Positions 2,279 to 22,310 of a stretch of 40,683 nt of DNA are shown piece by piece. The stretch lies in assembly GCA_012730045.1 (NCBI GenBank), contig JAAYBR010000048.1, forward strand, positions 1 through 40,683, in the 5' to 3' direction. Below the pieces are notes generated by a model that was not told the DNA's origin, did not search any database, and saw only the letters and a list, made by a program, of their open reading frames with translations. Both the position numbers and the translations under genes were made by a program. Source of the DNA: Candidatus Hydrogenedentota bacterium (GTDB lineage: Bacteria; Hydrogenedentota; Hydrogenedentia; Hydrogenedentales; CAITNO01). How positions within the stretch are numbered: the first letter of the stretch is position 1; every line of letters begins with the position of its first letter.

Positions 2279-2414
2279 AAGTTGTTTTCGGTGAGTGCAT
2301 GAAGGGGTCAGGCATGACAAACACAATAGGACCGCGCCACAGCCCCGCAGAGCGCGTTTCTCCCTCCGGTGGTCTGTTCACCCGCCTCCGGTCGTGATCG
2401 TGCCCCCTGCGGCC

Positions 2415-2735
2415 TCTGTGGCGGTCTATTCTTGGAACCTTCACCGCCGCCACCTCACCACCTCACAGCGGGCAATGGTGGCGACCGCCGTGCTCCCGAT
2501 GCTGGAGGAACAGGCGAAAGAGCGCATGAAGGAAGCCGGGGCGAAGGGTGCGGCAATCGCAGGGAAGGGGAGGCCCGCACAGAATGATAGGGGGGTCGCA
2601 AATTTGCGACCCCCCGAAGAGGTGGACAACAAACACCTCGCATCCGCAGACGCGGCCACCATGTTGAACGTCTCCCCGCGCAGTGTACAGACCGCCAAGA
2701 AGGTGCAACAGGCCGCGCCGGAACTCGCTGAAAAG
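2415..2735 (+). pseudogene. ParB-like protein remnant
   Basis: The plus-strand translation reads NLHRRHLTTSQRAMVATAVL, then about 60 residues later LNVSPRSVQTAKKVQQAAPE. This pair is characteristic of the region just after the ParB/Spo0J-like nuclease domain and of the following HTH in phage- and plasmid-borne ParB-like proteins. The nuclease domain that should precede it is missing, and homology stops abruptly at about 2735, just before a hairpin terminator. There is no plausible start codon with a ribosome binding site. It points the opposite way from every intact gene of the element. I read it as a fragment truncated at both ends. The frame stays open to 3653 only because it runs antisense to real genes. 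Confidence 0.6.
2590..2615. repeat. 26-bp perfect palindrome
   Basis: Six G, then TCGCAAATTTGCGA, then six C form a perfect dyad within the ParB-like remnant. It is self-complementary over its full length. It could be a protein-binding site or a hairpin; no role is shown. Confidence 0.7.
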
Positions 2736-2768
2736 GGAAACCCCCGGCCAGCGGGTGCCAGCCGGGGG
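2731..2768 (-). terminator. Intrinsic-like terminator of element operon
   Basis: On the minus strand a stem CCCCCGGC/GCCGGGGG (2761-2768 pairing with 2741-2748) with a 12-nt loop is followed by TTTCCCTTTT. It lies 30 bp beyond the last minus-strand gene (ends 2798), where an operon terminator is expected. The T tract is interrupted, so termination efficiency is uncertain. Confidence 0.6.
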
Positions 2769-2797
2769 CGGGGAGCATGTGCCCCTATGCCGAGAAA

Positions 2798-2998
2798 CTA
2801 TTTTTCGCGCAGATGGCGAGCGCGGAGCATGTCGCCCAGCGGTAGGGCCTGTCCCGGCTCCGGGAAGGGGTACACCGTCTCCCGGCTCCGGGCAACGGCC
2901 CTGATAGCCTCGGAAAGTTTTCCGTTAGGCTCATGCGGTCGGACAGCCTCGGCCAGTGCGGCGCGGATCATGCGGGCGAGGGGGGTGTTACTCTCCAT
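2798..2998 (-). CDS. Hypothetical 66-aa element protein
   Basis: This is a small, mostly helical, Arg/Ala-rich protein (MESNTPLARMIRAALAEAVR at its start) with no domain I recognise. Its start overlaps the end of the upstream coiled-coil gene by 11 bp if the ATG at 2998 is used, or by 20 bp from the ATG at 3007. Such overlap is the rule in this operon and is the main evidence that it is a gene. It is the last gene before the terminator hairpin at 2741-2768. Its role is unknown; being near the element end proves nothing about function. Confidence 0.5.
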   Translation of the reverse strand: MESNTPLARMIRAALAEAVRPHEPNGKLSEAIRAVARSRETVYPFPEPGQALPLGDMLRARHLREK

Positions 2999-3533
2999 TG
3001 GAAGCATCCTCGAGCATGTCGGTTATCAGGCGGTGCCCAGTGGCCAGCCGCGCGACGGCGAGGGCGCGGAAGCTCCGGGGCGAACACGCGCCGCCGAGGT
3101 GCCCCCCACGCTTCGGGTATGCCGCCGAAAACTCGCGGACCCGCCCCTCGGCCTGATGATGCAGCACATGGAGCCGCTGGGCCGCCGCGTGCATCTCCGC
3201 CACGGCGCGCTCGATGATCACGGCCTCGGCGTCCTGGGCCGCGTGAAGCTCCGCCAGGGCGTCGCCGACTTCCGCGCGCGCCTCCGGCTCGGCATCTGCG
3301 CGGGCAATGCGGACGGCCTCGGCGTGGGCGCGCAGAACGGACTCCAAGTCTGCGACTTCCCCCCTGTGCTTCGTGATCGTCTTGCGCGCCGTCTGTCCTC
3401 CCTCGCCGTCGGCGAGTTCCTGCGCAAGGTCAGCCTCGGCGCGGCTCAGTCCGCCGCGCGCGGCCTCCAGTTCGTGGGCGATGACAGCGGCGGCGGCCTC
3501 CAGGCTGCGGACGTGGTGAAGTGCTTCAATCAT
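2988..3533 (-). CDS. Hypothetical coiled-coil element protein
   Basis: This 181-aa protein is rich in Ala, Glu and Arg with heptad-like spacing over residues 10-130 (for example SLEAAAAVIAHELEAARGGL), suggesting long alpha-helical coiled coil. The C-terminal 50 residues are different (Gly/Arg-rich, then LATGHRLITDMLED). No catalytic motif or membrane segment is visible. Its ATG overlaps the stop of the upstream terS-like gene by 8 bp (ATGATTGA), indicating translational coupling. A structural or accessory role alongside the upstream DNA-binding protein is possible but only inferred from position. Confidence 0.6.
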   Translation of the reverse strand: MIEALHHVRSLEAAAAVIAHELEAARGGLSRAEADLAQELADGEGGQTARKTITKHRGEVADLESVLRAHAEAVRIARADAEPEARAEVGDALAELHAAQDAEAVIIERAVAEMHAAAQRLHVLHHQAEGRVREFSAAYPKRGGHLGGACSPRSFRALAVARLATGHRLITDMLEDASNGE

Positions 3534-3996
3534 GGTCTGCCTCCAGAATCTGCGCGGCCAGCGCGCGGAGTTCGTCGTCTGTCATTTTGGTGTAGGGATT
3601 CTCCCCGCTGGGATCGGTCGGCGCGATTTTCTGCGGCGCGTCAAGGCCGTTGAGCTTCGCGCGCCGTTCCATGATGCGGAGGACGCGGTCGGCGGCGGGA
3701 AACACGCCCGCAAGTGCTTTTTCCCATAGCGCGGCCTGCATCTCGTCGAGTCTCTGGTTTTCCAGCTCGCGCAGATGCTCGGCCAGTTCGGCGCACTCGG
3801 CCAGCGTCTCGGCCAGCGCGTCGCGGACGTAACGGTAGGCGGTTGATGTGTCCACGCCGAGAGTGTCGCCGATCCCGGCGAATGTCAGGCCTTTGATTCG
3901 CAGTGCCAGGGCGTCGGCACGTCGCCCGGCGGCGGCTGCGCAGTCGGGCCTAGCCTTGGCGGTGTGTCTTTTTGTGGGCCGTACATTGTCAGTCAT
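3526..3996 (-). CDS. Terminase-small-subunit-like HTH DNA-binding protein
   Basis: This 156-aa protein has an N-terminal helix-turn-helix (about residues 24-62, ALALRIKGLTFAGIGDTLGV then STAYRYVRDAL). A helical segment follows, then RVLRIMERRAKLNGLDAPQK near residues 103-122. That combination is typical of small phage proteins annotated as terminase small subunits or HTH packaging proteins. In phages TerS recognises the packaging site and loads the large terminase; no large subunit gene is visible here. In some phage satellites a TerS redirects helper-phage packaging, which would fit this element, but that is inference. The start overlaps the upstream gene by 8 bp (ATGACTGA). A plain transcriptional regulator is the main alternative. 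Confidence 0.6.
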   Translation of the reverse strand: MTDNVRPTKRHTAKARPDCAAAAGRRADALALRIKGLTFAGIGDTLGVDTSTAYRYVRDALAETLAECAELAEHLRELENQRLDEMQAALWEKALAGVFPAADRVLRIMERRAKLNGLDAPQKIAPTDPSGENPYTKMTDDELRALAAQILEADHD

Positions 3997-4633
3997 TAGC
4001 GCGCTCCTTCTTCCGGTCGGGGACCGCCCGCAGTGTGTGCGCGTCCGTGGGCGGCTTCGGCGGTGAGAGGCGCGGCATGGGCTTCACGGGCTTCTGGCGC
4101 GTGTTCGTGAAGTGCTGGCCGTGCCCCGCGACGATGACGCGGGCGGGCCTTTTGGGGGTGTCGGTCATTTTCTGGTTTCCTTTCACGGTTTGCCCGTTAT
4201 GGCCTATTTCCGGCCCTTGGGGCGTTTTTAGGGTTTCAGCGGATACAGACAAGGCTGGGGAGGTGAACGCGTCTCCTGCGGCCTCCTGCGCGTTTCTTTT
4301 CGCGATGCAGTCGCGGAGTTCCACCACCAGTGGGCGGATTGTCTCCGCGTAGTCCATCCCGGCGGATTCAGCGTCACGGATGGATGCGTACAGCTCCCCT
4401 TCCCGGCGGCGCAGCCGCCCAGGCATGTCTTGGGGCGTCTGCGCCGATCCGCACCCTGTAGCGCAAGCGGAAGGGGGCGCGTCGGTGCTGCGCCCCTTCC
4501 TGCTAACGGGGGGGTTAAAGGGGGGGGATTCCGCCCTCTGCGTCAACCGCGTCAACCGCGTCAACCTCTTAAGGGAAACACGCGGTTGGCGCACCCGGTT
4601 GGCGCACCCTGCGGGGCGGTCAGAAGGGCACAT
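3989..4633 (-). CDS. Hypothetical element protein, start uncertain
   Basis: The frame is open from before 4633 and ends at 3989. The ATG at 4633 overlaps the end of the repA-like gene by 14 bp and gives 214 aa. The first 45 residues are low complexity, because the iteron-like DNA repeats at 4541-4609 translate as RLTRLTRLT and similar. A better conserved-looking part begins near MPGRLRRREGELYASIRDAE, with a helical stretch to about residue 128. A second strong start exists at 4168: GAAAGGA lies 9 nt before ATG and would yield a separate 59-aa Lys/Pro-rich basic protein (MTDTPKRPARVIVAGHGQHF at its start). Two nested products are possible. No domain is recognised. Confidence 0.5.
   Translation of the reverse strand: MCPSDRPAGCANRVRQPRVSLKRLTRLTRLTQRAESPPFNPPVSRKGRSTDAPPSACATGCGSAQTPQDMPGRLRRREGELYASIRDAESAGMDYAETIRPLVVELRDCIAKRNAQEAAGDAFTSPALSVSAETLKTPQGPEIGHNGQTVKGNQKMTDTPKRPARVIVAGHGQHFTNTRQKPVKPMPRLSPPKPPTDAHTLRAVPDRKKERAND
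4541..4609. repeat. Iteron-like direct repeats
   Basis: Three tandem 9-mers CGTCAACCG (4541-4549, 4550-4558, and 4559-4566 lacking its last G) are followed 17 bp later by two tandem 13-mers GGTTGGCGCACCC (4584-4596, 4597-4609). The second set contains GGTTG, the complement of CAACC in the first, so the two sets face each other. They begin 11 bp beyond the repA-like stop. Tandem repeats next to a replication-initiator gene often form its origin; that role is inferred. Confidence 0.6.
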
Positions 4634-6176
4634 CGTATTCCTCCTCCGTGTAAAGTTCATCGAACACCCCCCCGGCGGGCTGTAGTGTCTCGACTTCGTG
4701 ACGGTTCGGCTTGCGGACAGTCTCGACGCGGAGTTTCCCGGCAGCGACAAGGGACTGGACAGCCGCCTCGACATCGCGGTTGCGCGCCCAGCCGACGGCG
4801 GCCAGGACGGCGGAAACCAGCCGCCCGGCGTCGCCCTTGCCTTGACAGACGGCGCGCGGGTTGATGATCACCGCAGGGTTGTTATGCACCCATCGCAGGA
4901 CGGCCGCCTCGACTTCCCGGCGGTCATGCGTCACGGGGCCGCCAATGGACTCCAGACAGCCGCCGTCGCCCACGGACACAATGCGCAGATGCAGACGCGC
5001 CTCACCGCTGGAAAACTGCGGCTTAGTGTTACTCAATTCGAGGGTGCCGTCTGCGGTGCGTTTCAGCTCCCACGCGCCGCGCGCCTCATCGGTTACGGCG
5101 GAGCTTCCCCGGACATTCTCGGCGGATGCGTCGCCCTTCCCCGTGCCTTTGCGCGTGTGCGCCAATACCAGCACGGCGGCCTCGGAGTCCCGCGCAATGT
5201 CGCCCAGGACGGCCATAAGCTCGCCCATCGCGGCAGCGTCATTTCCGTCAATGGCACCCCCAGCACGGCGCAGCGTGTCCACCACGACTAGCGCGGGCCT
5301 CATGGCGCGGACCGCCGCGCGCAGCTCCCGGCAAAAGGCGGTCGGGCGGACATTCCCCGCGCGGTCAAGTTCTACCAGCGGACCGGGGGTGTCGAGGAGG
5401 TGGACATGCTGCGCCATGTCGGCGGCCATGCGGTCAGCGTCGAGGCGGTGGTGCATCTGGAGGGCGCGCCACCGTTTCGCGGCAATGTGGCGGGAGTCTT
5501 CATAGCTCAGGGTCACGACATCGCCATGGGCAAGAGGTGCCATGCCATTGATGAGCGCGCGGCCATGCGCGACGGACACCTCCAGACTGCGGGCAAGCAT
5601 GCTTTTTCCGACGCCTCCGGGAGCCGCCAGCACCGTCACGACGCCGCGCAGCAACCAGCCGTCCACCAGCCACGGCAGCGGCGCGGAGGCAAGGCCGTCA
5701 AGGTTTGACAAGTCGGCGAATTGCAGCCCCGCGCCCGTGTCTCCGCTCAATGCGGCCATGCGCTCTAGGATCGCGGTTTCATCGTCTCCGGCGGTCACAG
5801 CGCGGCGCAGCTCCCCGGCCAGTGCGTCACGCTCGACCGCCCGCAGGAAGTCGCGCACATCGCCCGCACAGAGCGCGGGGGACTGTGTTGGCGGGGCCAG
5901 CGGGTCAAATAGCACCCGGACAAGACCGCTCTCGTTGAGACGGATAACGGCCTCATGGACGGCCTCCTCCGTGATCGGCGCGCGGTCTGCATCCATGCGC
6001 TTGATGATGTCCACCAACACCTCGAACGGATGCCCAAGTCCGCGCAGATCGGCAGGCAGGGACACCAGCTCGCGGACGGCCTCGGCGTTGCCCTGGGCTG
6101 CGCGACGGATCAGACGGCCCAGCGAGTCAGCGGCCAGCGATGCGGCGCGGGTGATGGGGTCCGCGCGTGGGGTCAT
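4620..6176 (-). CDS. RepA-like AAA ATPase / replicative helicase-primase-associated protein
   Basis: This 518-aa protein carries a RecA-fold AAA domain of the RepA/AAA_25 type. The Walker A motif APGGVGKS is at residues 185-192, a Walker B ALVVVD ends at Asp300, and between them lies the family-typical segment VTLSYEDSRHIAAKRWRAL. The N-terminal 150 residues resemble a DnaB-helicase N-terminal-type helical region. A winged-helix-like C-terminus (from about 425) could bind DNA. In plasmids, satellites and islands such proteins act as hexameric helicases at the origin. I chose the ATG at 6176: it overlaps the upstream stop as ATGA and starts at MTPRADPITRA, whereas the longer frame to 6419 is antisense-like and Arg/Pro-rich. 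Iteron-like repeats lie just past its end. Confidence 0.8.
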   Translation of the reverse strand: MTPRADPITRAASLAADSLGRLIRRAAQGNAEAVRELVSLPADLRGLGHPFEVLVDIIKRMDADRAPITEEAVHEAVIRLNESGLVRVLFDPLAPPTQSPALCAGDVRDFLRAVERDALAGELRRAVTAGDDETAILERMAALSGDTGAGLQFADLSNLDGLASAPLPWLVDGWLLRGVVTVLAAPGGVGKSMLARSLEVSVAHGRALINGMAPLAHGDVVTLSYEDSRHIAAKRWRALQMHHRLDADRMAADMAQHVHLLDTPGPLVELDRAGNVRPTAFCRELRAAVRAMRPALVVVDTLRRAGGAIDGNDAAAMGELMAVLGDIARDSEAAVLVLAHTRKGTGKGDASAENVRGSSAVTDEARGAWELKRTADGTLELSNTKPQFSSGEARLHLRIVSVGDGGCLESIGGPVTHDRREVEAAVLRWVHNNPAVIINPRAVCQGKGDAGRLVSAVLAAVGWARNRDVEAAVQSLVAAGKLRVETVRKPNRHEVETLQPAGGVFDELYTEEEYDVPF

Positions 6177-6523
6177 TTCAAGCACCCTCGGCGACGGAGG
6201 TTTTCCCGCGCCTCGGCCACGGCCTTGTCGCGCTCGGCGTCGGTGCGGGTGCGCTCCGTCTGCGCCGGGGTGGGCGCGGCGGATGCAGTCAGCGGGCGGT
6301 CGGCCTGGGCCAGCCGCTGGCCGAAGTCTCGGAGAGCATCCTCCGTGACGCGAATCTCGCGCCCCATGCGGAGGTATTTCAGAGACACGCCACGGCACCC
6401 CTTGCGGCACCATCGCCACACTGTGACGGTGGACGGGCGTTTCCCGCCGCGCCCAAGGTATGCAGCGGCCTCAGGGAGTGTCAAAAGGGAGGGGGAGGGG
6501 GAGGGGGTCAAGGGAGCACTCAT
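6173..6523 (-). CDS. Excisionase-like / MerR-type HTH DNA-binding protein
   Basis: This 116-aa protein has an N-terminal winged-helix of the excisionase/HTH_17 kind: LLTLPEAAAYLGRGG (about residues 14-28), TVTVWRWCRKGCRGVSLKYL and MGREIRVTEDALRDFGQRL. A charged helical tail follows. Such proteins bend DNA at attachment sites to favour excision or act as regulators of element genes. I chose the ATG at 6523, preceded by GAAAGG at 8 nt spacing; an upstream ATG at 6601 would start inside the promoter. It is the first gene of the operon and is translationally coupled to the repA-like gene (ATGA at 6173-6176). Confidence 0.75.
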   Translation of the reverse strand: MSAPLTPSPSPSLLTLPEAAAYLGRGGKRPSTVTVWRWCRKGCRGVSLKYLRMGREIRVTEDALRDFGQRLAQADRPLTASAAPTPAQTERTRTDAERDKAVAEARENLRRRGCLK

Positions 6524-6599
6524 ATCCGGCAACCTTTCAGTTACTGGTGTGCTCCTTTTGAAACATCGGCAGATACACTCTACCTTCGTTTCGCTCCGC

Positions 6600-6628
6600 A
6601 TTATATCACACGTTTACCCCCATTGCAA
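6600..6628 (-). promoter_or_regulatory. Sigma-70-type promoter of the element operon
   Basis: On the minus strand TTGCAA (6623-6628) and a perfect TATAAT (6600-6605) are separated by exactly 17 nt. The start of the excisionase-like gene is 77 nt downstream of the -10 box. It lies in an AT-rich island, unusual in this GC-rich window. Confidence 0.75.
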
Positions 6629-6653
6629 GTGGTACAGCACACTACTTCACCAC

Positions 6654-6672
6654 GCGAAAAGTCAATTTTCGC
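6654..6672. promoter_or_regulatory. Operator-like inverted repeat
   Basis: GCGAAAA-GTCAA-TTTTCGC forms a perfect 7-bp dyad with a 5-nt spacer, 25 bp upstream of the -35 box of the operon promoter. The position suits a repressor or activator site. The binding protein is unknown; the excisionase-like product is a candidate. Confidence 0.5.
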
Positions 6673-6700
6673 ACTAATGGTATATAGCGCAATTCGCCTG

Positions 6701-7093
6701 TCATGGGACGGCGTTATTCTCGCAGTCGCGGCCATAGTTCACAAGGGAGCATGTCTCGCAGTCTCCGCCGTTCTGTGTGCAATAGTGCGGCGGCACGGTC
6801 CAGCCCAGGGCCTGGGCGGCCTCGCGGATCACCCGGCGGATGCGGGCATCCTGATGCACGTCGCGCGGCACCATGCGCCGCCGCGCCTCCTCCTCGGATT
6901 CGATCAGCTCGTAGTGGTGAAGGTCATGCGCAAACGCGGCGAGGTAATCATCATCGGAGGGCGCATCCGGCCATGCCCACGCGGACCCGGCGTTAGACTC
7001 GCAGGCCTCGACGAATTGCGCCAAAGTGAAAACGGCGTAGGCCTCGGCGGGCCTCTGGTGGGGAACCTCTACAAGAATGTGCGGGTACATCAT
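6701..7093 (-). CDS. Hypothetical element protein with C-terminal Cys cluster
   Basis: This 130-aa acidic protein has no domain I recognise. Its last 30 residues hold four cysteines (YCTQNGGDCETCSLVNYGRD, then CE), a spacing that could bind a metal. The middle is Glu/Arg-rich and likely helical. The ATG at 7093 is preceded by GAAAGGA at 7 nt. This ribosome binding site lies in a 15-mer (complement TCCTTTCACGGTTTG, 7101-7115) that recurs exactly at 4178-4192 before another element start. It sits 70 bp after the integrase stop on the same strand, so it may be co-transcribed with it. Its role is unknown. Confidence 0.65.
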   Translation of the reverse strand: MMYPHILVEVPHQRPAEAYAVFTLAQFVEACESNAGSAWAWPDAPSDDDYLAAFAHDLHHYELIESEEEARRRMVPRDVHQDARIRRVIREAAQALGWTVPPHYCTQNGGDCETCSLVNYGRDCENNAVP

Positions 7094-7163
7094 CGGTCTA
7101 TCCTTTCACGGTTTGAACATGGCACCCGACGGCGACAGACCACGGGCGCGCATGTGGTCTGCA

Positions 7164-8369
7164 TCATCCAATTTTCGCGGCGACGGTGGCGGCCAGTGCT
7201 TTGTCGGCCTCGGCGTAGACTTGAGTTATTGCGGCGTCGGCGTGCCCCAGCGCGGCGCGCGCGGCCTCCAGTCCAAAGTGTTGACGGGCACGGGTCGCGT
7301 ATGAGTGGCGCATCTGGTGAACGTGCCAATGGGGCACAGCCTCCCCATCCTCTAGCGGACGGCCCAGCTCCATTTCCCGCGCCTTGTTTGCCTTGCGCAC
7401 CCCCACGGTGACGGCATGGCAGACGCTGGCGTTGGTGTAGTGCTCGCCCAGGGTCCGGTCGGTCTCGCGCAGGTTCGGTAGCTGGTTTGGTCTGCGGTGA
7501 ACCCGGCATCCCTCAGACCATTCTTTCATCGCGTCGGCGGGAGGGAACAGATACCCGTCACGGTGGCGGAGCATGGCCTCTTTCAGTATCCGCTGGGCCT
7601 CCGGTCCGAAACAGATAACGCGGGTCTTGCCCAACCCGGCGGTCTTGTGATCTTTCGGGCTATAGGTCCAGACGGGGCCGGAGCGGTCAATGTCTACGGC
7701 TTTGACGGCCACCAGCTCGCCGACGCGGGCACCAGAATGCCAAAGCACCAGCACCAGCTCTCGGACGGGCCGGGGAAGGTGCGGCAGGGTGGCGGCGACG
7801 GTCGCCCACTCAACAGGACGGACAGGCTCCGGCTCCGTCGTGCCGGGTGCATGGCCGCGCCGCAGTCCCTTCACACACCGCAGGGCCTCGGGGATGGAAC
7901 CGGGAATCAGCTCCATGGATGCGCCCCATGCAAAAATCGCGGTGACGGACTGCGCCATGCGGTTGACAGTCCGGCGGCTCAGTGTTCCATCGCACAAGGC
8001 CGCGCGGTATTGTTGGAGTGCCAGCGGGCCGTACTCGGCGGCTGGCATCCCCCCGGCAAAATCGGCGAAACGACCACACCATGTAAGCAGGGTTGAGCGG
8101 TGTGTGTTGTCAGGCAGATACCCGACAAGGTGCGCCGTGTATTTGTCCACCAGCTCCATGACGGTGATCAGCCTCGGAGACGGCGGGGCGGGTTGGCGAC
8201 CATGGGACAGCCAGCGGGCTATCTCGGCCTGATAGCGGACCTGGGCGGCTTCGGGGTCACTTCCCAGCCATGTATCGCGCCCATTCAGGGTGACGCGGTA
8301 ATGGCCTGTTCCCTTGTGAAAACGGAGCGAGGGAACCTTCTGGATTGCACGTTTGGACTTAATAGACAT
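7164..8369 (-). CDS. int: Tyrosine recombinase (integrase)
   Basis: This 401-aa site-specific recombinase integrates and excises the element at tRNA-Arg. The N-terminal part (1-60) resembles an arm-binding domain, followed by a SAM-like core-binding domain (about 68-165) and the catalytic domain (about 185-400). The catalytic set is complete: Arg215 in HSGARVGELV, Lys242 in KDHKT, His351 and Arg354 in HQMRHSYAT, His376 in LGHADAAIT and the nucleophile Tyr385 in VYAEAD. Length matches the phage-integrase family. The start at 8369 is preceded by GGGAGG with a rather long spacer (about 11 nt). The gene lies just downstream of tRNA-Arg on the same strand, so read-through from the tRNA promoter could contribute to its expression. 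Confidence 0.95.
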   Translation of the reverse strand: MSIKSKRAIQKVPSLRFHKGTGHYRVTLNGRDTWLGSDPEAAQVRYQAEIARWLSHGRQPAPPSPRLITVMELVDKYTAHLVGYLPDNTHRSTLLTWCGRFADFAGGMPAAEYGPLALQQYRAALCDGTLSRRTVNRMAQSVTAIFAWGASMELIPGSIPEALRCVKGLRRGHAPGTTEPEPVRPVEWATVAATLPHLPRPVRELVLVLWHSGARVGELVAVKAVDIDRSGPVWTYSPKDHKTAGLGKTRVICFGPEAQRILKEAMLRHRDGYLFPPADAMKEWSEGCRVHRRPNQLPNLRETDRTLGEHYTNASVCHAVTVGVRKANKAREMELGRPLEDGEAVPHWHVHQMRHSYATRARQHFGLEAARAALGHADAAITQVYAEADKALAATVAAKIG

Positions 8370-8431
8370 CGGCGGCGCAGCCTCCCTGCTAGGTAAATTA
8401 CCTAGCGTTGTAGGGTTTAGCTGCGCCGCCG
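8370..8431. promoter_or_regulatory. Nested palindromic leader of the integrase gene
   Basis: Perfect 12-bp arms CGGCGGCGCAGC (8370-8381) and GCTGCGCCGCCG (8420-8431) enclose a second palindrome, GCTAGGTAA-A-TTACCTAGC (8388-8406). The inner site contains the 15-mer also found near the left end (2264-2278). The outer arm abuts the integrase ATG, so the transcript could fold over the ribosome binding site. A protein-binding role (integrase or Xis arm site, autoregulation) and an RNA-structure role are both possible. Confidence 0.55.
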
Positions 8432-12080: not shown

Positions 12081-12305
12081 CTAGAGCAGGCTGTCCAGCC
12101 AGCCCCGGGCCCCCTCCAGAAAGGGAAGCAGGGAGAACCTCAGAAGATAGAAACAGGTAACCAAAAACGCCCAGGCCAAAGCGGCTGAATACAGACCGTT
12201 TTCAACAATAACAGACAAAAGCGCATTCTTATTATCACGGGACCCGGGGGCCTTCCCGGTCTCCGGGCGGGGATCAGGAAGGGGAGAAGTAGAGAGGGGA
12301 GTCAT
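12081..12305 (-). CDS. Small membrane protein, function unknown
   Basis: This 74-aa protein has a polar Pro-rich N-terminus (about 1-27). A hydrophobic span SAALAWAFLVTCFYLLRFSL (about residues 39-58) is followed by a short C-terminal amphipathic segment. Its ATG overlaps the stop of the upstream 522-aa gene as ATGA (12302-12305), so the two are translationally coupled and probably form a complex or pathway. It matches no family I can name. Confidence 0.6.
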   Translation of the reverse strand: MTPLSTSPLPDPRPETGKAPGSRDNKNALLSVIVENGLYSAALAWAFLVTCFYLLRFSLLPFLEGARGWLDSLL

Positions 12306-13870
12306 GGCATGTGCACCTGGGCCACAGCGCTCAGTTCACCGGATTCCACCTTGGCGAGGACAGATATCTCCTCCACGCGGGCGGTCAACTGCCGCCAAGC
12401 CGCCAGAGCGTCATCGAAGGTTTTGATTATATTTGGCTGTATATATCCGAATTCCTTGTAGGATTCGTAAAGACCGGCCAGGGCGTCCACCGCCTCCTTG
12501 GGGTGAAGGGTCACCTGCAAGTTGCCCTGCTGGGCTTCGCCGCCCGGGGCGGCGGCGGTGAGGAGTGTCTGGATGTCATCCGCATTGCTCGAAAAGAGAA
12601 CCCCCCCCTCGTAGTCCGCGAAGCAGGGCTTGAGCGCCGGTCCGCCGACCAGGGGCACCTGCACCACCGGAGAGTCGGGGCTGACGCGCGGCGTCCAGTC
12701 CACCTCGGGGTTGTCTGTTGGGACCGCCGGGGGATTCTCGCGCAGGGCGGCAAGCGCCTCCGCGCCCCCATCCACCGCCAGGACGGCATAGGGAACCGGA
12801 AGCATCTCGTTCAGGTCCACGCCCCGCCAGGCCAGCCGGGCGGAAGGCCCGGCCTTCTCCAGGATGCCGACGGCAAGGTTCGCCAGGGCGGCGTGGGGTC
12901 CGGCCTCCGGCGGGAGGGGCTGCAGCAGGGACGCGGCAAGCTCCTGTTTTCCGGCGAAGGCGGCCAGTTGCCGGACGGCGGCGGGAAGGGGCTGTCCGGC
13001 GTTGAAGGTCAGCGAGACGATGCCCGGGAGGGAGTGGGGGAGGGGCTGCGGGGCGAGGCCGGGCAGCAGGGCGTCCATCTGTTCCCGCCGTTGGGTGCTC
13101 AGGCGGGCGGCGAGGGAGAGGACGGCCTCCTTCTCGCGGACATGGACGGAGAGGCTGACCTGGTCGGCCCATTCCTCCAGGCCCGGCCAGGCGCTTGGGC
13201 TGATGCGGGCGAAGAGGTCGGCGCGGGCCGCGCCGGCGTGCCAGTCCTGGAGGGCCTGGTCGCCGAGGGCGTCCCCGTCGGCGAGGGTGAGGGCGTGGAT
13301 GAGGGCCCGGCGCGAGGGGCTGAGCACGAGCATGCGGCCGCGGACGGCGAAATGGAGGCCCGACTCCGGCTCATGCTGGAGAAAAAGGCCCCCCGCGCGT
13401 TCCCGCTCCATGGCGGGCAGGAACCGGGCGAGTTTCATGGCCAGGCAGCCGACGCGGGTCATCTTGGAGACGACCAGCAGCTCGGAGAAGTCGTCCACGC
13501 GCGGACTGGACCAGAAACTGATGTCGGAGCTGAGGTTGTTGAGGAGCCATTCGGGCACGGGGGCGGGGGAGAGGGCGGCCTGGGCGGCCTCCCGCCCGGC
13601 GCTGCCCTCGGGGAGCAGCTCCCACATCTGGGACTGCGCAAGCAGGGCGCGCTTGCGCATCACGTTGTCCACGCTCGCCTGGAAGGCGGCGTCCTTCGGG
13701 AGCAGCCCGCCCATGGACCAGGTGTCCCGGGTGGTCCACCAGGCGGCGATCAGCAGGGCGAGGGCCGCGAAGAGCACCCACCCCCCGAAACGGCCGGCGC
13801 GGCGGCGCAGTTCGCGGCGGCGCCTCCGCACGCTGGTTCCCGTGGTGAAACTTCTAAGAACGTCGCTCAT
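12302..13870 (-). CDS. Membrane-anchored protein of unknown function (DUF3352-like organisation)
   Basis: This 522-aa protein has a basic N-terminus (RRRRRELRRRAGRFGGWVL), then one transmembrane helix (about 31-45), then a large extracytoplasmic region. The exported part has repeated alpha/beta segments recalling proteins annotated DUF3352, in which two similar halves follow a single membrane anchor. No catalytic motif is visible. The ATG is 4 bp after the stop of the ceramidase-like gene, with AAGGA 9 nt upstream lying in that gene's last codons. The downstream 74-aa gene overlaps it. The context suggests a periplasmic partner of the exported hydrolase, but this is inference only. Confidence 0.7.
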   Translation of the reverse strand: MSDVLRSFTTGTSVRRRRRELRRRAGRFGGWVLFAALALLIAAWWTTRDTWSMGGLLPKDAAFQASVDNVMRKRALLAQSQMWELLPEGSAGREAAQAALSPAPVPEWLLNNLSSDISFWSSPRVDDFSELLVVSKMTRVGCLAMKLARFLPAMERERAGGLFLQHEPESGLHFAVRGRMLVLSPSRRALIHALTLADGDALGDQALQDWHAGAARADLFARISPSAWPGLEEWADQVSLSVHVREKEAVLSLAARLSTQRREQMDALLPGLAPQPLPHSLPGIVSLTFNAGQPLPAAVRQLAAFAGKQELAASLLQPLPPEAGPHAALANLAVGILEKAGPSARLAWRGVDLNEMLPVPYAVLAVDGGAEALAALRENPPAVPTDNPEVDWTPRVSPDSPVVQVPLVGGPALKPCFADYEGGVLFSSNADDIQTLLTAAAPGGEAQQGNLQVTLHPKEAVDALAGLYESYKEFGYIQPNIIKTFDDALAAWRQLTARVEEISVLAKVESGELSAVAQVHMP

Positions 13871-13874
13871 GGGG

Positions 13875-16250
13875 CTAGTCCTTCAACGAGACGGTTGTGT
13901 AGGGGCCGGGGCGGCCGTTTTCATCGGGAAACGCCACCTGCACCCTGCCGGACTTGGGGAGAAACACGGCGCTGTGCCGGGTGGCGGCGCTCCAGATCCG
14001 CGCGGCCTCGGGCGCGCTCTCGTCGGAATCCCCGAGAATGCGCTGCATTTCGCTGTCGCCGATGATGCGCTGCCCTTCGGCCAGGGCGGCGAAGCGGGCG
14101 TAGCGCGCGGCGTCGTCCGGCGCGGCGGCGGCCGACAGCGGGTCCACGCCGGGCAGCAGCCCGTTGGTCTCCGCGCGGCGCACCGTGACGGTCGGGCCGA
14201 ACTCCACCACGGCGGCGGCGGCCTTCTTTCCGTTGAAGCCCGCCACCAGCACATGGACCCCGCGCACATGCGCGAGGGCCTGGAGGTTCGCCACGGCGGT
14301 GTCCGGCTTGTCCACGGATTGGAGCATGTCGCGCAGCAGCAGCTCCACCGGCGGGCCGTCCAGGGTCTCCGCGCCGGGGGTGACGTGCGGCAGGCGCTCC
14401 ATGCAGAGCACCAGGCCCGCCTCGTTCATGCCCGAGAAGACCCCGGCGTTCCACGGGAAGCCGATCTGCACATAGGCGAGGCCCGCGTCCGGCTTCACCA
14501 CCGAGACCACGGGCAGCTCGTCGCCCCAGGGCCAGTCGAGGTTCCGGGCCACCAGCAGGTCGTCCGCGCCCGCGGGAATGCCCGTGGCGGCGACCATGGT
14601 GCACAGGGGCGCGGTGAAGAGCGGCGACTTGTCCTCCAGGCGCGAGAAGAGGGGGGCGGCCTGGAGGAGCCACACGGCGTCAAAGGGCAGGCCCGCGCCC
14701 TGGGCCAGCCCGGCCATTTCGAGGAAGGTGGAGTCCGGGGTGCCCCTGAGGGGCCGGCGCGCGGCCATGCCCAGGATGGGCAGCATCAGCGTGGACGGGT
14801 CCATGAACGCGGGGAACTTCGCCCAGAGGCTCTTCGGCGGCGTCCATTCGCCCGCCTTCACGGGCCGCTCCACCCGCTCCAGCCAGCGCTGTTTCAGGTT
14901 GTCGGCGAACACGCGGCCCCGCGCCTCGCCCACGGTCTTCGGGTCCCCCGCCAGGCGCAGCAGCACGGCCCCGCCGGGCAGGTCCTCGCGCGCCTGCGGC
15001 TCGGCGGCCGGCGGGTCGGGCGCCGCCTCGGCCCTGCTCATGAGGCGGGTGAACTGCGTGTAGAACCAGTCCTCCATGAGGGGGCCGTAGAAGCTCATGG
15101 ACGCCTCGTAGTTGTACTCGGCGTAGAGGCTGCGCGGGGTGAAATACATGAGGTAGTCGTTGGCCAGGCCCACGGAGAACTGGGCGGCGTAGCCCTTCTC
15201 CAGGGCGCGGCGGCGCAGCTCCAGCCCGATCTCCACGCAGGCCTCGCCGGGCAGGAAGGTCACCAGCAGGTCGTTGATCTCCAGCGCCTGCAGGAGCACC
15301 TTTTTCGGCATCATGTCCCCCGCGAGGCTCAGGGGCAGGTCCGGCTCCGCCGACGCCACCCGCAGCGTCGCCTCGCCGCAGGTGATGGAGGGCAGCGCCT
15401 CCTTCACCCGCTCCGCCAGCGTGCGGCCCTCGGCCTCCGTGCGGCCCCAGTCCGTCTTGTTCTGCGGCGGCGAGCCGATGGTCTGGTTGCCCTCCGTGCT
15501 GTTCAGGAAGAGGGGCACGCACTCCGGGCGCGTCAGCGCCTCCAGGTGGGAGCAGTAGAAACCCGGGTAGTCCGCGGACACGCTGTACAGGTTCTCATCG
15601 CCCACCGAGGTCGGGTGGGCCGCCATGTTCGCCACCACGCTGATCGGGTTGCCGTCCGCGTCCTCCACGAGGATCACGCCGATCTGCGGATCCGACGGCC
15701 CGTCGCCGAAGCGGCGGTTGTGCGTCAGGTCCGTCTGCGCGAGCGTGCCGTGGCCCACCGCCGCCCGCGTGCGCGTGTCATAGGCCTGCTGCATCGCCTG
15801 GACGATGCCCGTGGCCGCCGCCTCCAGCACCTCCGGCATGAAGCGCCCCGACACCAGCCGCACCGGCATCTTCCGCGTCATGCCGCCCGTGCCCGAATGC
15901 GTGTGCGTCGCCGCCAGAATGATGTTCTCCCGCGGCGCCACGTCCGGCGCCAGCTCCAGCACCCGCGCGCGCAGCTCCGGCGGCACCGCCACCAGGTCCA
16001 GGCTCACCAGGAACAGCCGCGTCGTGCCGTCGTCCAGATACAGCGCCCGCGCCCACAGCGGGTCATGGACCGCCGTCGCGCCCCGGCCCATGCGGGCCCC
16101 GTAGCCGTTCAGCGGCGCGCCCAGCGGCGGTGTGATGTCCGCCTTGCCCGCGCCCGCCTCCAGCGCCCCCGCCCCGGCGGGAAACAGCCCGGCGGCCAGC
16201 AGCACCGCCGCCGCAAAACCGTGAATCGTCTGTGCGAGAGAAATGCGCAT
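13875..16250 (-). CDS. Exported ceramidase-like / C45 Ntn-hydrolase fusion
   Basis: This 791-aa protein has a signal peptide (about 1-29), then a neutral/alkaline ceramidase N-terminal-type domain (about 30-420). That domain shows AGKADITPPLGAPLNGYGAR, the metal-site HTHSG in ILAATHTHSG, AAHPTSVGDEN and YPGFY. The stretch that should read like GD(V/Q)xP is FLNSTEGNQTIGSPP, so its nucleophile region is divergent. A second domain (about 450-790) is C45-like, as in acid ceramidase, NAAA and acyl-CoA:6-APA acyltransferase. The candidate Ntn nucleophile is Cys550 in PLCTMVAATG, followed by LLVARNLDWPWGDELPVV and GMNEAGLVLCMERLP. Both halves belong to amide-bond hydrolase families, so an exported N-acyl amidase is likely. 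The ATG at 16250 starts the signal peptide; upstream frame is repeat DNA. It heads an operon with two membrane proteins. Confidence 0.8.
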   Translation of the reverse strand: MRISLAQTIHGFAAAVLLAAGLFPAGAGALEAGAGKADITPPLGAPLNGYGARMGRGATAVHDPLWARALYLDDGTTRLFLVSLDLVAVPPELRARVLELAPDVAPRENIILAATHTHSGTGGMTRKMPVRLVSGRFMPEVLEAAATGIVQAMQQAYDTRTRAAVGHGTLAQTDLTHNRRFGDGPSDPQIGVILVEDADGNPISVVANMAAHPTSVGDENLYSVSADYPGFYCSHLEALTRPECVPLFLNSTEGNQTIGSPPQNKTDWGRTEAEGRTLAERVKEALPSITCGEATLRVASAEPDLPLSLAGDMMPKKVLLQALEINDLLVTFLPGEACVEIGLELRRRALEKGYAAQFSVGLANDYLMYFTPRSLYAEYNYEASMSFYGPLMEDWFYTQFTRLMSRAEAAPDPPAAEPQAREDLPGGAVLLRLAGDPKTVGEARGRVFADNLKQRWLERVERPVKAGEWTPPKSLWAKFPAFMDPSTLMLPILGMAARRPLRGTPDSTFLEMAGLAQGAGLPFDAVWLLQAAPLFSRLEDKSPLFTAPLCTMVAATGIPAGADDLLVARNLDWPWGDELPVVSVVKPDAGLAYVQIGFPWNAGVFSGMNEAGLVLCMERLPHVTPGAETLDGPPVELLLRDMLQSVDKPDTAVANLQALAHVRGVHVLVAGFNGKKAAAAVVEFGPTVTVRRAETNGLLPGVDPLSAAAAPDDAARYARFAALAEGQRIIGDSEMQRILGDSDESAPEAARIWSAATRHSAVFLPKSGRVQVAFPDENGRPGPYTTVSLKD

Positions 16251-16939: not shown

Positions 16940-17755
16940 TCAGGAGCGCGCGGTGCGCATGATGGCCTTGTCGAGTTCGAGGGGCGTGCCGCCGGGCACG
17001 CAGAGGTACTGGTCGAAGTCCGTGTAGCCGACCTCGCGCAGGAACTCCTCGTCGAGGACGGCGCGGCCGTTGGACTGGTCCGGGTGCGCCAAGATTTCCC
17101 AGGTGGCGTCGGCCACGATGTCGGCCTTGCGCCAGATTTCCGGCGCGCCGAGGCCGAAGTTTTTGGTGGCGTAGGACTCGATGACGGTCTTGGGCCAGAG
17201 GGCGGTGGCGGCGATGTTGTAGGGCTTCAATTCTTCGGCGAGGCCGAGGGCGATCATGGTCATGCCGAATTTGCTGACGGAGTAGGCGATGTGCCCGGGG
17301 ACCACTTCGAGGTCCACGGGGGGTGACATCATGATGACATGGCCGCTTCCCTGCGCCTTGAGCGTCGGAAGGAAGGCCTCGGTGACGGCGTAGGCGCCGC
17401 GCACGTTCACCCCGACCACGAGATCGAAGCGGTTGAGGGGCGTCTCGTCCATGTTCCGCCACCACAGCGCTCCGGCGTTGTTGATGACGGCATCCACCCG
17501 GCCAAACTTGTCGAGCGTGGCCTGGGCGGCCGCGCGCACCTCGTCCGCGTCGCGGACATTGCAGCGCACCGGCAGGACCTCCACGCCCAGCCGGGCAATC
17601 TCCTCGGCGGCGGAGTAGATCGTGCCGGGGATGCGCGGGTCCTCCTCCGTGCTCTTGGCGGCGACCACGATGTTCCATCCCTCTGCGGCGAGGCGGAGCG
17701 CGCAGGCCTTGCCGATGCCCCGGGTGGCTCCGGTGATGAATGCGACTTTGCCCAT
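16940..17755 (-). CDS. Short-chain dehydrogenase/reductase (HSDL2-like)
   Basis: This 271-aa NAD(P)-dependent oxidoreductase has the Rossmann nucleotide-binding motif GATRGIG near residues 8-14 and NNAGAL near 96. The catalytic Ser is in IMMSPP, and Tyr-x-x-x-Lys is in AYSVSKFG. The segment AAKSTEEDPRIPGTIYSAAE is typical of the hydroxysteroid-dehydrogenase-like 2 (HSDL2) group, whose physiological substrate is poorly defined. The ATG at 17755 directly precedes the Rossmann strand and has AAGGAG 7 nt upstream; the longer frame to 17809 is rejected. It is transcribed divergently from the two-component genes. Confidence 0.9.
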   Translation of the reverse strand: MGKVAFITGATRGIGKACALRLAAEGWNIVVAAKSTEEDPRIPGTIYSAAEEIARLGVEVLPVRCNVRDADEVRAAAQATLDKFGRVDAVINNAGALWWRNMDETPLNRFDLVVGVNVRGAYAVTEAFLPTLKAQGSGHVIMMSPPVDLEVVPGHIAYSVSKFGMTMIALGLAEELKPYNIAATALWPKTVIESYATKNFGLGAPEIWRKADIVADATWEILAHPDQSNGRAVLDEEFLREVGYTDFDQYLCVPGGTPLELDKAIMRTARS

Positions 17756-17909
17756 GGGGTGTCTCCTTGTGTTGAACAACGCCAGCATAGCACAGGCGGA
17801 TTCCCCCATGATGCCGATTTGTGGGCTGGGCGGGCTTTCACCTTTGACACCTTTCGCGGTAATGAAAACTGCAACAACTGCGGTATTCCCGGAAAAATCC
17901 GGAAACGGG

Positions 17910-17939: not shown

Positions 17940-18065
17940 ACGTATAGACGGTACGAGAACTGCGAATTTTGCAGTGGCGGCTCCGCGTGGGCGGGGCCGA
18001 AGGGGCAGTGCAATACAACGAGGCGAGTGCCTGTCGCATTTTCATCCAATGGAGGACTTTTTGCC

Positions 18066-18650
18066 ATGACAGACCGGGAACAGAAAGCCTTTACGACGTT
18101 TGAGGCGGCGAAAATCTGCCACGTCACGCACCACAGCATCAAGAACTGGATCAAGCAGGGGCTGATCAAGGCGTCGCGCACGCCCGGCGGCCACTACCGC
18201 ATCCTGGAGAAGGACCTGGACAAGTTCCGGGAGCGGTTTGACATGTTCCCCCGGGAGAAGGGCCCGTCCACCAAGCGGGTGATGGTGGTGGACGACGATC
18301 CGGACGCGCTGGCGCTGATGGACCGGATCCTGTCGGACGAGGGGTTTGAGCTGGTGAAGGTGGCCAACGCGACGGAGGTGGGGCTGAAGGCGGTGCAGAT
18401 GACGCCCGACCTGATCCTGCTGGACTTTCTGATGCCGGAGATCAACGGGTTTGAGGTGTGCTCGGCCCTTCGGGCGAACGAGCTGACGCGCAGCATTCCG
18501 ATCATGGCGGTGACCTGCCTTTCCAAGGAAAAGGACATCGAGCGCATCTTCGCGTCCGGGGCGGACGACTACCTGTCCAAACCGTTCAAGGTGGACACCC
18601 TTCTCGCGAAAGTGCGCGAGCTGGTGGGCAAGGGGCGCAACGCGGAGTAG
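18066..18650 (+). CDS. Response regulator with N-terminal HTH and C-terminal receiver
   Basis: This 194-aa protein starts with an excisionase/MerR-like winged helix (about 9-55: TTFEAAKICHVTHHSIKNWI, then TPGGHYRI). It ends with a CheY-like receiver (about 75-190): acidic VVDDDPDAL, phospho-acceptor Asp120 in ILLDFLMPEINGFEV, Thr in AVTCLSKE and Lys in YLSKPFK. Most response regulators have the opposite order. The DNA-binding fold suggests a transcription factor whose activity is set by phosphorylation from the adjacent hybrid kinase (33 bp downstream, same strand). GGAGGA precedes the ATG at 18066; the upstream in-frame ATG at 18027 lacks such a site. Confidence 0.9.
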   Translation: MTDREQKAFTTFEAAKICHVTHHSIKNWIKQGLIKASRTPGGHYRILEKDLDKFRERFDMFPREKGPSTKRVMVVDDDPDALALMDRILSDEGFELVKVANATEVGLKAVQMTPDLILLDFLMPEINGFEVCSALRANELTRSIPIMAVTCLSKEKDIERIFASGADDYLSKPFKVDTLLAKVRELVGKGRNAE

Positions 18651-18683: not shown

Positions 18684-21600
18684 ATGCGCAAGATGCTGAC
18701 GCGCGGCAGCCTGGAACGCCGTTTTGTGGTCTCCATCCTCTGGGTGGGCGTGATCCCCATGATGCTGGCCATGGTGATCGGCTATCTCGCCGCCCGTGAG
18801 GCCCAGCAGATCGCCACCCTGCAGAACCTGTCCACGGCCGCGAAAAAGACCGCGGACGGGATCAACCTCGCCATGGGGGAGCGGGAGTACATGATCACCC
18901 GCCTGGGCGCGTCGGCGGCCCTGGTCCAGTTCCTCCAGGAGCACGCGACAGCCCCCTCCACCTCCGCGGAGAGGGCGCTGGCGGTGCTGCGGGCGGACCT
19001 TTCCGAGAGCAGGGGCCGGACGCTGGACGCGGGGCTGTACGATCTCCAGGGCCGTCTGGTGGCGGCGGCGGGCGGTCCCGACCAGATACTCCCCGGGGAC
19101 CTGAGCGAGCCCGAGCTGATCACGGGGGCGCGCTTCGTGGACATCCGCTACGTCGCGGACACGGAGCAGTATGTGGCGGTGCTCGCCGCGCCTGTCCGGG
19201 CCGCCGCCGGGGGCGGGGTGCTGGGGTACCTCGTGGAGGTGCAGAGCCTGGGCGAGCTGCTCGGGTTCATCCTCGGCGACCGGAGCCGCGAGACCGTCCG
19301 CTCCGGCGTCTACGACCGCTACGAGATTGTCATCTACTCCGAGCGCGCGCGCCTGGTGGTCTACCCCGACATGACCTCGGAGGGGGAGGCGGCCCCGCCG
19401 CGCTACGCCACGGTGGACCCCAAACTCGCCGAACGCTTCACGAAGTACCCCGAGCGCGACTCGGACGCCTTCTTCCTGTGGAACTACGAGTCCGGAGACA
19501 GGCGCGCGCCGGTGCTGCTGGCCTACCAGCGGCTGGTGCCGGGGACGGACGTGTTCGTGGCCGTTCACCGGCCCACGCCGCAGGTGTTCTCCCGGATCAA
19601 CCTGGCTGCCCTGGTGACCCTGGCCGTGACCAGCGTGCTCATCGGCATTTTCTGCGCCGTGGCCTACCGGATCGTGAACAACACCATCATCCGCCCGCTC
19701 TCGCTGCTGAGCGAGGGGGCGCAGATCGTGCGCCAGGGCGACCTGGACCTCAAACTCAAGGTGGAGACGGGCGACGAGATCGAGGAGCTGGCCACCTCGT
19801 TTAACGAGATGGCGGCGGCGCTCCGGCACAACCTGGGGCGGCTGCGCCAGTCCGAGGAGAAGTACCGGAACCTGGTGACGTCCATGCGCGACGGCCTGTT
19901 CCAGACCGGGGCCGATGGGGCACTGGCCTTTATCAACCCCGCCGGGGTGGAGATACTGGGGTTTCGCGACTACGGCGAGGCGCTGGGCGTCTGCCTGGAG
20001 GACCTGTGCGAGGATCCCGCGGAGTGGGGCCGCCTCGCCGACGGCGCCCCCGGGGAAATCGGGGCCCGCCCCATCCGCATCTGGATGCGGCGCCCTGACG
20101 GGGGCCGTGTCTGCGTGGAGCTTGCCGGGCGGCGCCTGGTGGGCGAGGACGGGGTCTTCGAGGGGGTCGGCGGCACCTTTCGCGATGTCACGCGGAACGT
20201 CCTGCTCGAGGGGGAGGCGGGGGAGCGCGCGGAGCGGATCGCCGTCATCAACCAGATCGCGAACGTGATTAATTCCAGCCTGGAGGCGGGGCTCCTTTAT
20301 GAGAGCCTCACGGCGGAGCTGCGCCGGGTGATCCATTTCGACTATGCCGCCCTCTCGCTTCGCCTGGAGGACGACCCGGACCATTTTGAGACCCGCCAGC
20401 TCTGGCCCGAGCCCCGCGAGGGGCGCGAGCAGTTCCCCCGCCTGGACGGGGGGGACAGCTGCGCGGCCTGGGTGGTGGCGGAGGGGCGCGCCCTGCGCGC
20501 GGAGGACATCCAGTTCCCCGGGAGCGTCTTCGCCTTCCAGTTTCCGGAGACCATCCACGGCGTGCTGTGCGTGCCCCTGTTCGCGCGCGGCGAGGTGATC
20601 GGCGCGCTGAACCTCGGCTCGTCGGTTTCGGGCGGCTTCGCCAACCACGAGGCGGCGGTGCTGGAGCAGCTCTCGCCCCACCTGGCGGCGGCGCTGCGCA
20701 ACGCGCACCTGCTGGAAAGCCTGAAGCAGTCCCTGGAGGAGGTGACGCGGGCGCGGGAGAAGCTGCGGCTGGCCAACGACGAGCTGAAGTCGCTGGACGA
20801 GATGAAGACCAACCTGCTCTCCAACGTCTCCCACGAGCTGCGCACGCCCCTGGTGGCGGTGATGGGCTACACCGACATCGTGCTGAACGAGAAGGCGGGG
20901 CCCGTGACCGACACGCAGCGCGAATACCTGCGCATCAGTATGCGCAACGTGGAGAAACTCGTCACCCTCATCGAGAACCTGCTCGACTTCTCCCGGCTCC
21001 ACCGGGGCGCCGAGGAGGTGACCTTCACGCGTTTTGACCTGCTGGACTGCGTGCGCGCGAGCATGGAGAGCGTGAAGCCCCGCGCGGACACGCGCGGCAT
21101 CACGCTGCGGTGCGAGGTGCGCGACCCCTCCGGCGCGCCGGCCGCCGGGCCCGTGATGGTCGAGGGGGACAAGGGGAAGCTCGGCCAGGTCTTCAACAAC
21201 CTGCTCTCGAACGCCGTGAAGTTCAACCAGGACGGCGGCGAGGTGGCCGTGCTGGCGGAGCTGCGGCACGGCACGGTGTCCATTTCGGTGAGCGACACGG
21301 GCATCGGCATTCCCCCGGAGGCGCTCGACAAGGTGTTTGACCGCTTCTACCAGGTGGACTCCTCGTCCACGCGCAAGTACGAGGGCACCGGCATCGGACT
21401 GGCCATTTCCCAGGACATCGTCCGCCTGCACGGCAGCCGCATCACCGCCACCAGCCGGCTTGGGGAGGGGGCCACCTTCCAGTTCACCCTGCCGGCGGTG
21501 CGCCCCGAGGAGCCCGGCGGCGGGGCGGGCGCCGCCTTCTCCGTGGAGACGCGCCTCCTGGTCGAGGTGGTTGCCCAGGACCGGGCCCTCTCGTTTCAGC

Positions 21601-22310
21601 TGCGCAATTTGCTGGTCCCGGACGGCATAGACGTGATTCACGCCCCGAACCCGTCCGCCGCGGTGGCGCTGGCCCGGCGGTACAGCCCCGACTGCCTGCT
21701 GGTGGACACGGAGGCGGGGCCGCTGGGCGCCTTCGTGCTCGAGGAGATGCTGCAGGAGCCGGCCGGCGCCGAGGCGCCGATTGTCCTGATCACCAACGAC
21801 GACGCCCTGGCCGAGAAATACCGGCGCAGGCACCTGGTCGCGGCGCGCATCCGCCGCACCTTCCGCAAGAGCACCCTCCTGAGCGCCATCCACTCCGCCG
21901 TCAGCGGCGCCACCGAGGCCGCGCACAACCTCGGCGCCCGCGTCCTGTGCGTGGACGACGACCCGGAGATCGGCCGCGTGGTCGCCCGGTTCCTTGACGA
22001 CGAGGGATTTGCCGTGGACATCGCCACCACCGGCGCCAAGGCGCTGGAGCGGGCGAAGACCTGCGACTACTGGCTCGTGCTGCTGGACATCGCCCTCTCG
22101 GACATGGACGGGTGGGAGGTGTGCCGCCGCGTCAAGGGCGATCCGGAGCTGGCGGGCATCAAGGTGTTCCTCGTGACCGGGCGGCCGGTGGACAGCGAAC
22201 CGGCCCTGCTCCGTGACTCCGGGGCCGACGGCTACCTGCTCAAGCCGTTCCACGGCGAGGACCTGATGACCGCCGTCCGCGCCTTCGACGCGCAGCGCCG
22301 CAAGGGCTAG
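18684..22310 (+). CDS. Membrane hybrid sensor histidine kinase
   Basis: This 1208-aa kinase has TM1 (about 14-34), an extracytoplasmic sensor (about 35-300, Cache-like in size), TM2 (about 305-328) and HAMP (to about 380). A PAS domain (about 392-510), a GAF domain (about 520-680) and a coiled linker follow. HisKA carries His717 in NVSHELRTPLVAV. HATPase_c shows NNLLSNAVKF (about 837), DTGIGIPPEAL and GTGIGLAIS. Two receivers end the protein. The first (about 950-1065) is degenerate: Asp1008 remains, but the acidic pair is QD and the Lys motif reads RTFRKS. The second (about 1090-1205) is intact with VDDDPE, Asp1135 and LLKPF. It likely phosphorylates the upstream HTH-receiver protein. The signal is unknown. 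Confidence 0.94.
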   Translation: MRKMLTRGSLERRFVVSILWVGVIPMMLAMVIGYLAAREAQQIATLQNLSTAAKKTADGINLAMGEREYMITRLGASAALVQFLQEHATAPSTSAERALAVLRADLSESRGRTLDAGLYDLQGRLVAAAGGPDQILPGDLSEPELITGARFVDIRYVADTEQYVAVLAAPVRAAAGGGVLGYLVEVQSLGELLGFILGDRSRETVRSGVYDRYEIVIYSERARLVVYPDMTSEGEAAPPRYATVDPKLAERFTKYPERDSDAFFLWNYESGDRRAPVLLAYQRLVPGTDVFVAVHRPTPQVFSRINLAALVTLAVTSVLIGIFCAVAYRIVNNTIIRPLSLLSEGAQIVRQGDLDLKLKVETGDEIEELATSFNEMAAALRHNLGRLRQSEEKYRNLVTSMRDGLFQTGADGALAFINPAGVEILGFRDYGEALGVCLEDLCEDPAEWGRLADGAPGEIGARPIRIWMRRPDGGRVCVELAGRRLVGEDGVFEGVGGTFRDVTRNVLLEGEAGERAERIAVINQIANVINSSLEAGLLYESLTAELRRVIHFDYAALSLRLEDDPDHFETRQLWPEPREGREQFPRLDGGDSCAAWVVAEGRALRAEDIQFPGSVFAFQFPETIHGVLCVPLFARGEVIGALNLGSSVSGGFANHEAAVLEQLSPHLAAALRNAHLLESLKQSLEEVTRAREKLRLANDELKSLDEMKTNLLSNVSHELRTPLVAVMGYTDIVLNEKAGPVTDTQREYLRISMRNVEKLVTLIENLLDFSRLHRGAEEVTFTRFDLLDCVRASMESVKPRADTRGITLRCEVRDPSGAPAAGPVMVEGDKGKLGQVFNNLLSNAVKFNQDGGEVAVLAELRHGTVSISVSDTGIGIPPEALDKVFDRFYQVDSSSTRKYEGTGIGLAISQDIVRLHGSRITATSRLGEGATFQFTLPAVRPEEPGGGAGAAFSVETRLLVEVVAQDRALSFQLRNLLVPDGIDVIHAPNPSAAVALARRYSPDCLLVDTEAGPLGAFVLEEMLQEPAGAEAPIVLITNDDALAEKYRRRHLVAARIRRTFRKSTLLSAIHSAVSGATEAAHNLGARVLCVDDDPEIGRVVARFLDDEGFAVDIATTGAKALERAKTCDYWLVLLDIALSDMDGWEVCRRVKGDPELAGIKVFLVTGRPVDSEPALLRDSGADGYLLKPFHGEDLMTAVRAFDAQRRKG

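Follow-up and report, generated by a model that had tools for sequence, protein, structure and literature searches.

Neutral-ceramidase and Ntn folds are unrelated and evolved separately to cut lipid N-acyl bonds. Why would a bacterium carry both in a single exported polypeptide? The question is raised by a gene of a Candidatus Hydrogenedentota bacterium (assembly GCA_012730045.1, contig JAAYBR010000048.1), found in a window, that is, the whole stretch of DNA that was analysed, of 40,683 nucleotides. The original prediction, made by reading the sequence, was that its product joins a neutral-ceramidase-like domain with a divergent nucleophile loop to a C45 Ntn-hydrolase domain of the acid-ceramidase/NAAA type. 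Cys550 was proposed as the nucleophile of the second domain, and self-cleavage was expected to split the protein between the two.

On balance we favour the view that the gene product is a bifunctional hydrolase that is exported. Two unrelated amidase folds, of which the C45 module would cleave itself, would act on a lipid acyl-amide with the assistance of a membrane partner.

One open reading frame encodes two hydrolase-like domains

The features of the locus are collected in Table 1. The fused reading frame, with Cys550 present, has a GC3 of 0.91, which supports its coding status, and in codon composition it resembles the real genes of the window. The signal peptide was called by reading the sequence together with the helix in the structural model, not by a dedicated signal-peptide predictor.

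Table 1. Features of the fused gene and its surroundings in the window.
Feature	Coordinates	Strand	Description and basis
Fused gene	13875..16250	-	791 aa, exported neutral-ceramidase-like domain + C45 Ntn proenzyme; ATG start at 16250, stop codon 13875-13877
Predicted signal peptide, residues 1-29	16164..16250	-	Hydrophobic helix 5-21; sequence reading, helix in model
PF04734 neutral-ceramidase-like catalytic core, residues about 30-405	15036..16163	-	Pfam, PDB alignment, model
Thr257 codon, neutral-ceramidase catalytic-Ser position	15480..15482	-	PDB and orthologue alignment
C45 propeptide / alpha segment, residues about 427-549	14604..14972	-	Model and profile alignment
C45 beta segment, residues 550-791, from Cys550	13878..14603	-	NCBIfam, alignments
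Cys550 codon, predicted autocleavage and catalytic nucleophile	14601..14603	-	Aligns with IPNAT Cys103
Partner gene	12302..13870	-	522 aa, N-terminal transmembrane anchor; directly 3' of fused gene
SDR gene upstream of fused gene	16940..17809	-	Not a conserved upstream neighbour elsewhere
Receiver domain + MerR-type HTH	18027..18650	+	Next to hybrid kinase gene
Hybrid histidine kinase	18684..22310	+	HAMP, PAS and GAF domains
Epimerase-DegT fusion	33779..35974	+	NAD-dependent epimerase and DegT-type aminotransferase in one ORF
Stretch of unclear coding	about 2000..8400		Perhaps a mobile element
Phage-type integrase gene	7164..8369	-	Within the preceding stretch

In Pfam, residues 32-238 matched Ceramidase_alk (PF04734; E = 2.2e-27, 96.4 bits against a cut-off of 32.1), which also had a second matching stretch, and residues 563-776 matched AAT (PF03417; E = 1.9e-7, 31.5 bits against a cut-off of 23.2). 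The latter E value was 4e-8 when the C-terminal half was the sole query. The NCBIfam model C45_proenzyme (NF040521) matched residues 509-770 (E = 1.7e-28, 99.9 bits against a cut-off of 85). When the two halves were searched separately, each yielded only its own family above cut-off. The neutral-ceramidase equivalog of NCBIfam (NF041649) scored 69 bits, far below its cut-off of 1200, and no Pfam match to the ceramidase C-terminal domain was obtained; the C45 half occupies that place.

An AlphaFold2 model of the fused protein, built from 45 aligned fused homologues (mean pLDDT 91.1, pTM 0.88), contains both folds. In Foldseek searches, the top PDB fold was neutral ceramidase (2zws, E = 9.9e-31), followed by precursor isopenicillin N acyltransferase (IPNAT; 2x1c, E = 2.5e-15), mature IPNAT and then NAAA and acid ceramidase. 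The C45 match spans about 380 columns; therefore the propeptide and the mature domain are both present. Pfam, NCBIfam, Foldseek and the orthologues described below all bear out the fusion of the two domains in one exported chain, and the C-terminal half does match an Ntn fold.

The ceramidase-like domain retains the zinc site and varies at the catalytic serine

The N-terminal domain shares with the Pseudomonas aeruginosa neutral ceramidase (2zws, PF04734) its fold, the ATHTHSG motif and every zinc-ligand equivalent. Residues H116, H118, H212, E336 and Y369 align with H97, H99, H204, E411 and Y448 of 2zws, which we take to be its zinc site, and all five equivalents are intact. In contrast, the catalytic Ser of the GDVSPN-type loop is replaced by Thr257, and T, R, A, S, V or K is found there in orthologues. 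The fused protein thus differs from neutral ceramidase in the variable Thr/Arg at this position, and also in bearing a C45 module where the ceramidase C-terminal domain would be. The divergent nucleophile loop had been foreseen correctly; to judge from the alignments it is a family trait, with the Ser position varying among orthologues. Because the catalytic Ser is both replaced and variable, the zinc domain may have a different activity or none.

Ceramidase-like proteins without the catalytic Ser recurred among the relatives examined, and to our knowledge no function has been ascribed to such proteins. The PF04734 family is expanded across the order, and the genome studied here has further ceramidase-like paralogues on C136, C27, C28, C63 and C100. 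Two tandem ceramidase-like genes were seen on Nitrospirota contigs (L117:1929-5088, L122:1594-5020).

Cleavage is predicted within the C45 module

Cys550 was found at the position expected of an Ntn nucleophile. In an alignment based on the family profile, which covers the propeptide, Cys550 and D572 align with Cys103 and D121 of IPNAT. R569 and D572 are conserved together with Cys550 in the beta segment, and R569 sits at the expected Arg position of the Cys-Arg-Asp set of Ntn amidases. A phmmer search of the PDB with the C45 half alone gave no match; the family profile did match.

The IPNAT precursor (MEROPS C45; 2x1c) resembles the module in its whole fold, propeptide included, and in the nucleophile Cys and the Asp that follows it. 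On the other hand, the module described here is exported and fused behind a ceramidase-like domain, identity is about 16%, and the Gly that precedes the Cys in IPNAT is Leu, Phe, Ile or Tyr in the fused family. Acid ceramidase and NAAA (Ntn, C89) also share the Ntn proenzyme fold and the Cys-Arg-Asp set (C550, R569, D572), but they are not the closest relatives: IPNAT is nearer by sequence and fold, and the family profile matched NAAA with E = 7.5e-5 and acid ceramidase with E = 0.55, both more distant than IPNAT.

Self-cleavage between the two domains, as first proposed, is not what the alignments predict. The predicted scissile bond, 549/550, lies about 120 residues beyond the ceramidase domain and falls inside the C45 module. 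Cleavage at this bond, placed by sequence comparison, would give an alpha chain comprising the ceramidase domain and the C45 propeptide, and a beta chain of residues 550-791. Residues 540-548, just before Cys550, are the sole segment of the structural model with pLDDT <50, and the first beta strand after Cys550 is formed by residues 551-556. An uncut Ntn proenzyme would be expected to have its loop at this low-confidence segment, although low confidence by itself is no proof. The two chains should remain bound after cleavage, because alpha and beta chains remain associated in characterised C45 and acid-ceramidase enzymes. In isopenicillin N acyltransferase, both chains remain one enzyme after cleavage. 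The mature form of acid ceramidase is a heterodimer (PMC5915598).

A membrane-anchored partner and the probable substrate

A second gene starts 4 bases after the stop codon of the fused gene. It encodes a protein with a basic N-terminus and one transmembrane helix. A gene for this partner (~525 aa, same strand) directly follows the fused gene in an operon-like pairing at 39 of 39 Hydrogenedentota-type loci, these being the named loci whose contig continues downstream. Of the 68 genomes of the order (our own included), 64 have the partner family, nearly always in single copy, as against 0 of 32 genomes outside it. Genomes that lack the fused gene (G001, G027 and G063) lack the partner as well. 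Membership of a known Pfam family was considered and rejected, as no Pfam family matched in any meaningful number of members.

A model of the partner (pLDDT 88) gave six chains of TP0453 from Treponema pallidum as its only significant PDB matches (E = 1.1e-5 to 1.1e-4). The match extends over about 250 residues (prob 1.00) and is weak, with a target TM of about 0.44, an rmsd of 8-9 A and 7-9% identity. The partner is about twice as long as TP0453, and it has an N-terminal transmembrane helix where TP0453 has a lipoprotein anchor. TP0453 is placed in the T. pallidum outer membrane (PMC7521688). Saposin-D aids the activity of acid ceramidase (PMC5915598). From the weak match and by analogy with saposin-D and acid ceramidase, we infer that the partner could have a lipid-presenting role. 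These data suggest that the fused gene and its partner form a dedicated lipid-processing unit.

The following sequence of events can be proposed. After export, the C45 module would cut itself between residues 549 and 550. The alpha chain (ceramidase domain and propeptide) and the beta chain (550-791) would stay bound and the Cys550 site would open. The zinc and Cys sites would then work jointly, and their most likely target would be an acyl-amide lipid, either from the envelope or from scavenged biomass. Binding or presentation of this lipid would fall to the membrane-anchored partner, in much the way that saposin-D helps acid ceramidase. An enoyl-CoA hydratase gene lies directly upstream on the same strand at 13 Hydrogenedentota loci, which is consistent with use of the released fatty acids.

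One possibility is that the substrate is some other acyl amide, such as an N-acyl amino sugar, a peptide, an acyl-homoserine lactone or a beta-lactam-like compound. This is conceivable because the C45/AAT superfamily is broad; moreover, IPNAT is the nearest C45 relative with a structure, and a gene for an epimerase-DegT aminotransferase fusion lies directly upstream of the ceramidase-C45 gene in five relatives. However, the ceramidase fold, the upstream enoyl-CoA hydratase and the TP0453-like partner indicate acyl lipids, and a non-lipid substrate is in our judgment the less probable case, if the strongest of the competing ones.

Two further readings were rejected. Ornithine-lipid synthesis (PF13444, OlsB type) was considered as an endogenous source of acyl amides, and the genome had no match to it. 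Cluster 30, which lies upstream in some relatives, was considered as an SDR and is an AsmA/DUF748-like protein.

Loss of the two active sites is linked

Both the zinc site and the Cys are intact in 52 of the 66 distinct fused proteins; 10 (one partial) have lost both, 4 have lost only the Cys and 0 have lost only the zinc site. A Fisher test on the full rows, zinc site against Cys, gave a p of about 2e-8, a value that ignores shared descent. The losses are spread over several separate families or genera, while most members, across most families sampled, keep both sites. As the Cys is never kept without the zinc site, this pattern in the aligned sequences suggests that the C45 activity would be of no use unless the zinc site is intact.

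This coupling bears on two alternatives to a bifunctional hydrolase. It could be speculated that only the C45 half is enzymatic and that the ceramidase-like half binds a lipid or other ligand, its hydrolytic activity having disappeared with the Ser. The presence of Thr, Arg, Ala, Val or Lys at the Ser position of orthologues is what would be expected of such a module. Against this, all five zinc-ligand equivalents are retained in 52 of the 52 members that keep Cys550 (two of them with Asp for Glu). In the 4 cases above the zinc site persists without the Cys, never the reverse. We consider this alternative rather unlikely.

Another possibility is that the protein and its membrane partner are chiefly a structural or sensing scaffold for which catalysis is dispensable. 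The ten proteins that have lost both sites persist as long reading frames beside the partner gene, and in the one close pair lacking only the Cys, with the zinc site kept (L104/L096), dN/dS was about 0.08 for one domain and 0.11 for the other. These observations indicate that selection may act on a non-catalytic role too. Several lineages that have the whole protein and the partner but have lost both sites likewise suggest such a role. Retention of both sites by most members in most families sampled nevertheless argues against a mainly non-catalytic function, which we regard as improbable, and a bifunctional hydrolase remains the interpretation that we prefer.

The two domains are fused in one phylum and mostly adjacent in another

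Of 67 other genomes of the order (Candidatus Hydrogenedentota), 60 have a reading frame that spans both domains, with identity of up to 71%; the fusion is phylum-wide. Outside the phylum, fused reading frames occur in 3 Planctomycetota MAGs and 5 Omnitrophota MAGs. That an assembly error or read-through joined two genes, as might be suspected of a single MAG contig and from the separate genes at most Omnitrophota loci, is refuted to near certainty by these independent genomes with the identical architecture.

Among 24 Omnitrophota loci, 16 have adjacent ceramidase-like and C45 genes on the same strand and 5 have the fused form. The split genes overlap or are a few bases apart, and some of the separate C45 proteins (at least that of L112) appear to carry their own signal peptide. 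In an unrooted tree of C45 domains, the fused Hydrogenedentota domains form one group, whereas in Omnitrophota the fused forms are scattered among the split ones. Standalone C45 proteins fall between the groups, so that this unrooted tree is compatible with one or several origins of the pairing. Proteins that are fused in some lineages and encoded by neighbouring genes in others classically work together. As the two domains are adjacent at most Omnitrophota loci and fused at a few, the pairing looks functional.

Contigs labelled Nitrospiraceae and Robiginitomaculum (L086 and L105) bear a fused gene of the Hydrogenedentota type, in L105 together with the partner gene; these are probably binning errors. 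At two Hydrogenedentota loci the fused gene has a standalone C45 gene as its close upstream neighbour (L071:6841-8115, L084:6853-8124), and this C45 gene adjoins an AsmA/DUF748-like gene.

In the literature searched on ceramidase together with C45, Hydrogenedentes/Hydrogenedentota or Omnitrophota, we found no description of this architecture. It is real and conserved and, as far as the searched literature goes, undescribed.

Biological implications

The joining of the two unrelated folds in one chain, kept across one phylum, and their pairing as neighbours in another implies a common substrate or successive ones. At its most specific, and here we are doubtful, Hydrogenedentota would possess a lipid unit in which convergent zinc and Ntn-Cys ceramidase-type chemistries sit in one self-nicking chain and share a lipid substrate. 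An undescribed partner, anchored in the membrane and able to bind lipid, would deliver it, and the same enzyme pair occurs as neighbours in Omnitrophota. Pfam has no model for the partner family that is conserved alongside the fused gene. The pairing offers a direct route to the role of ceramidase-like proteins without the catalytic Ser, and the lineages that have lost both sites are natural tests of catalytic versus structural roles.
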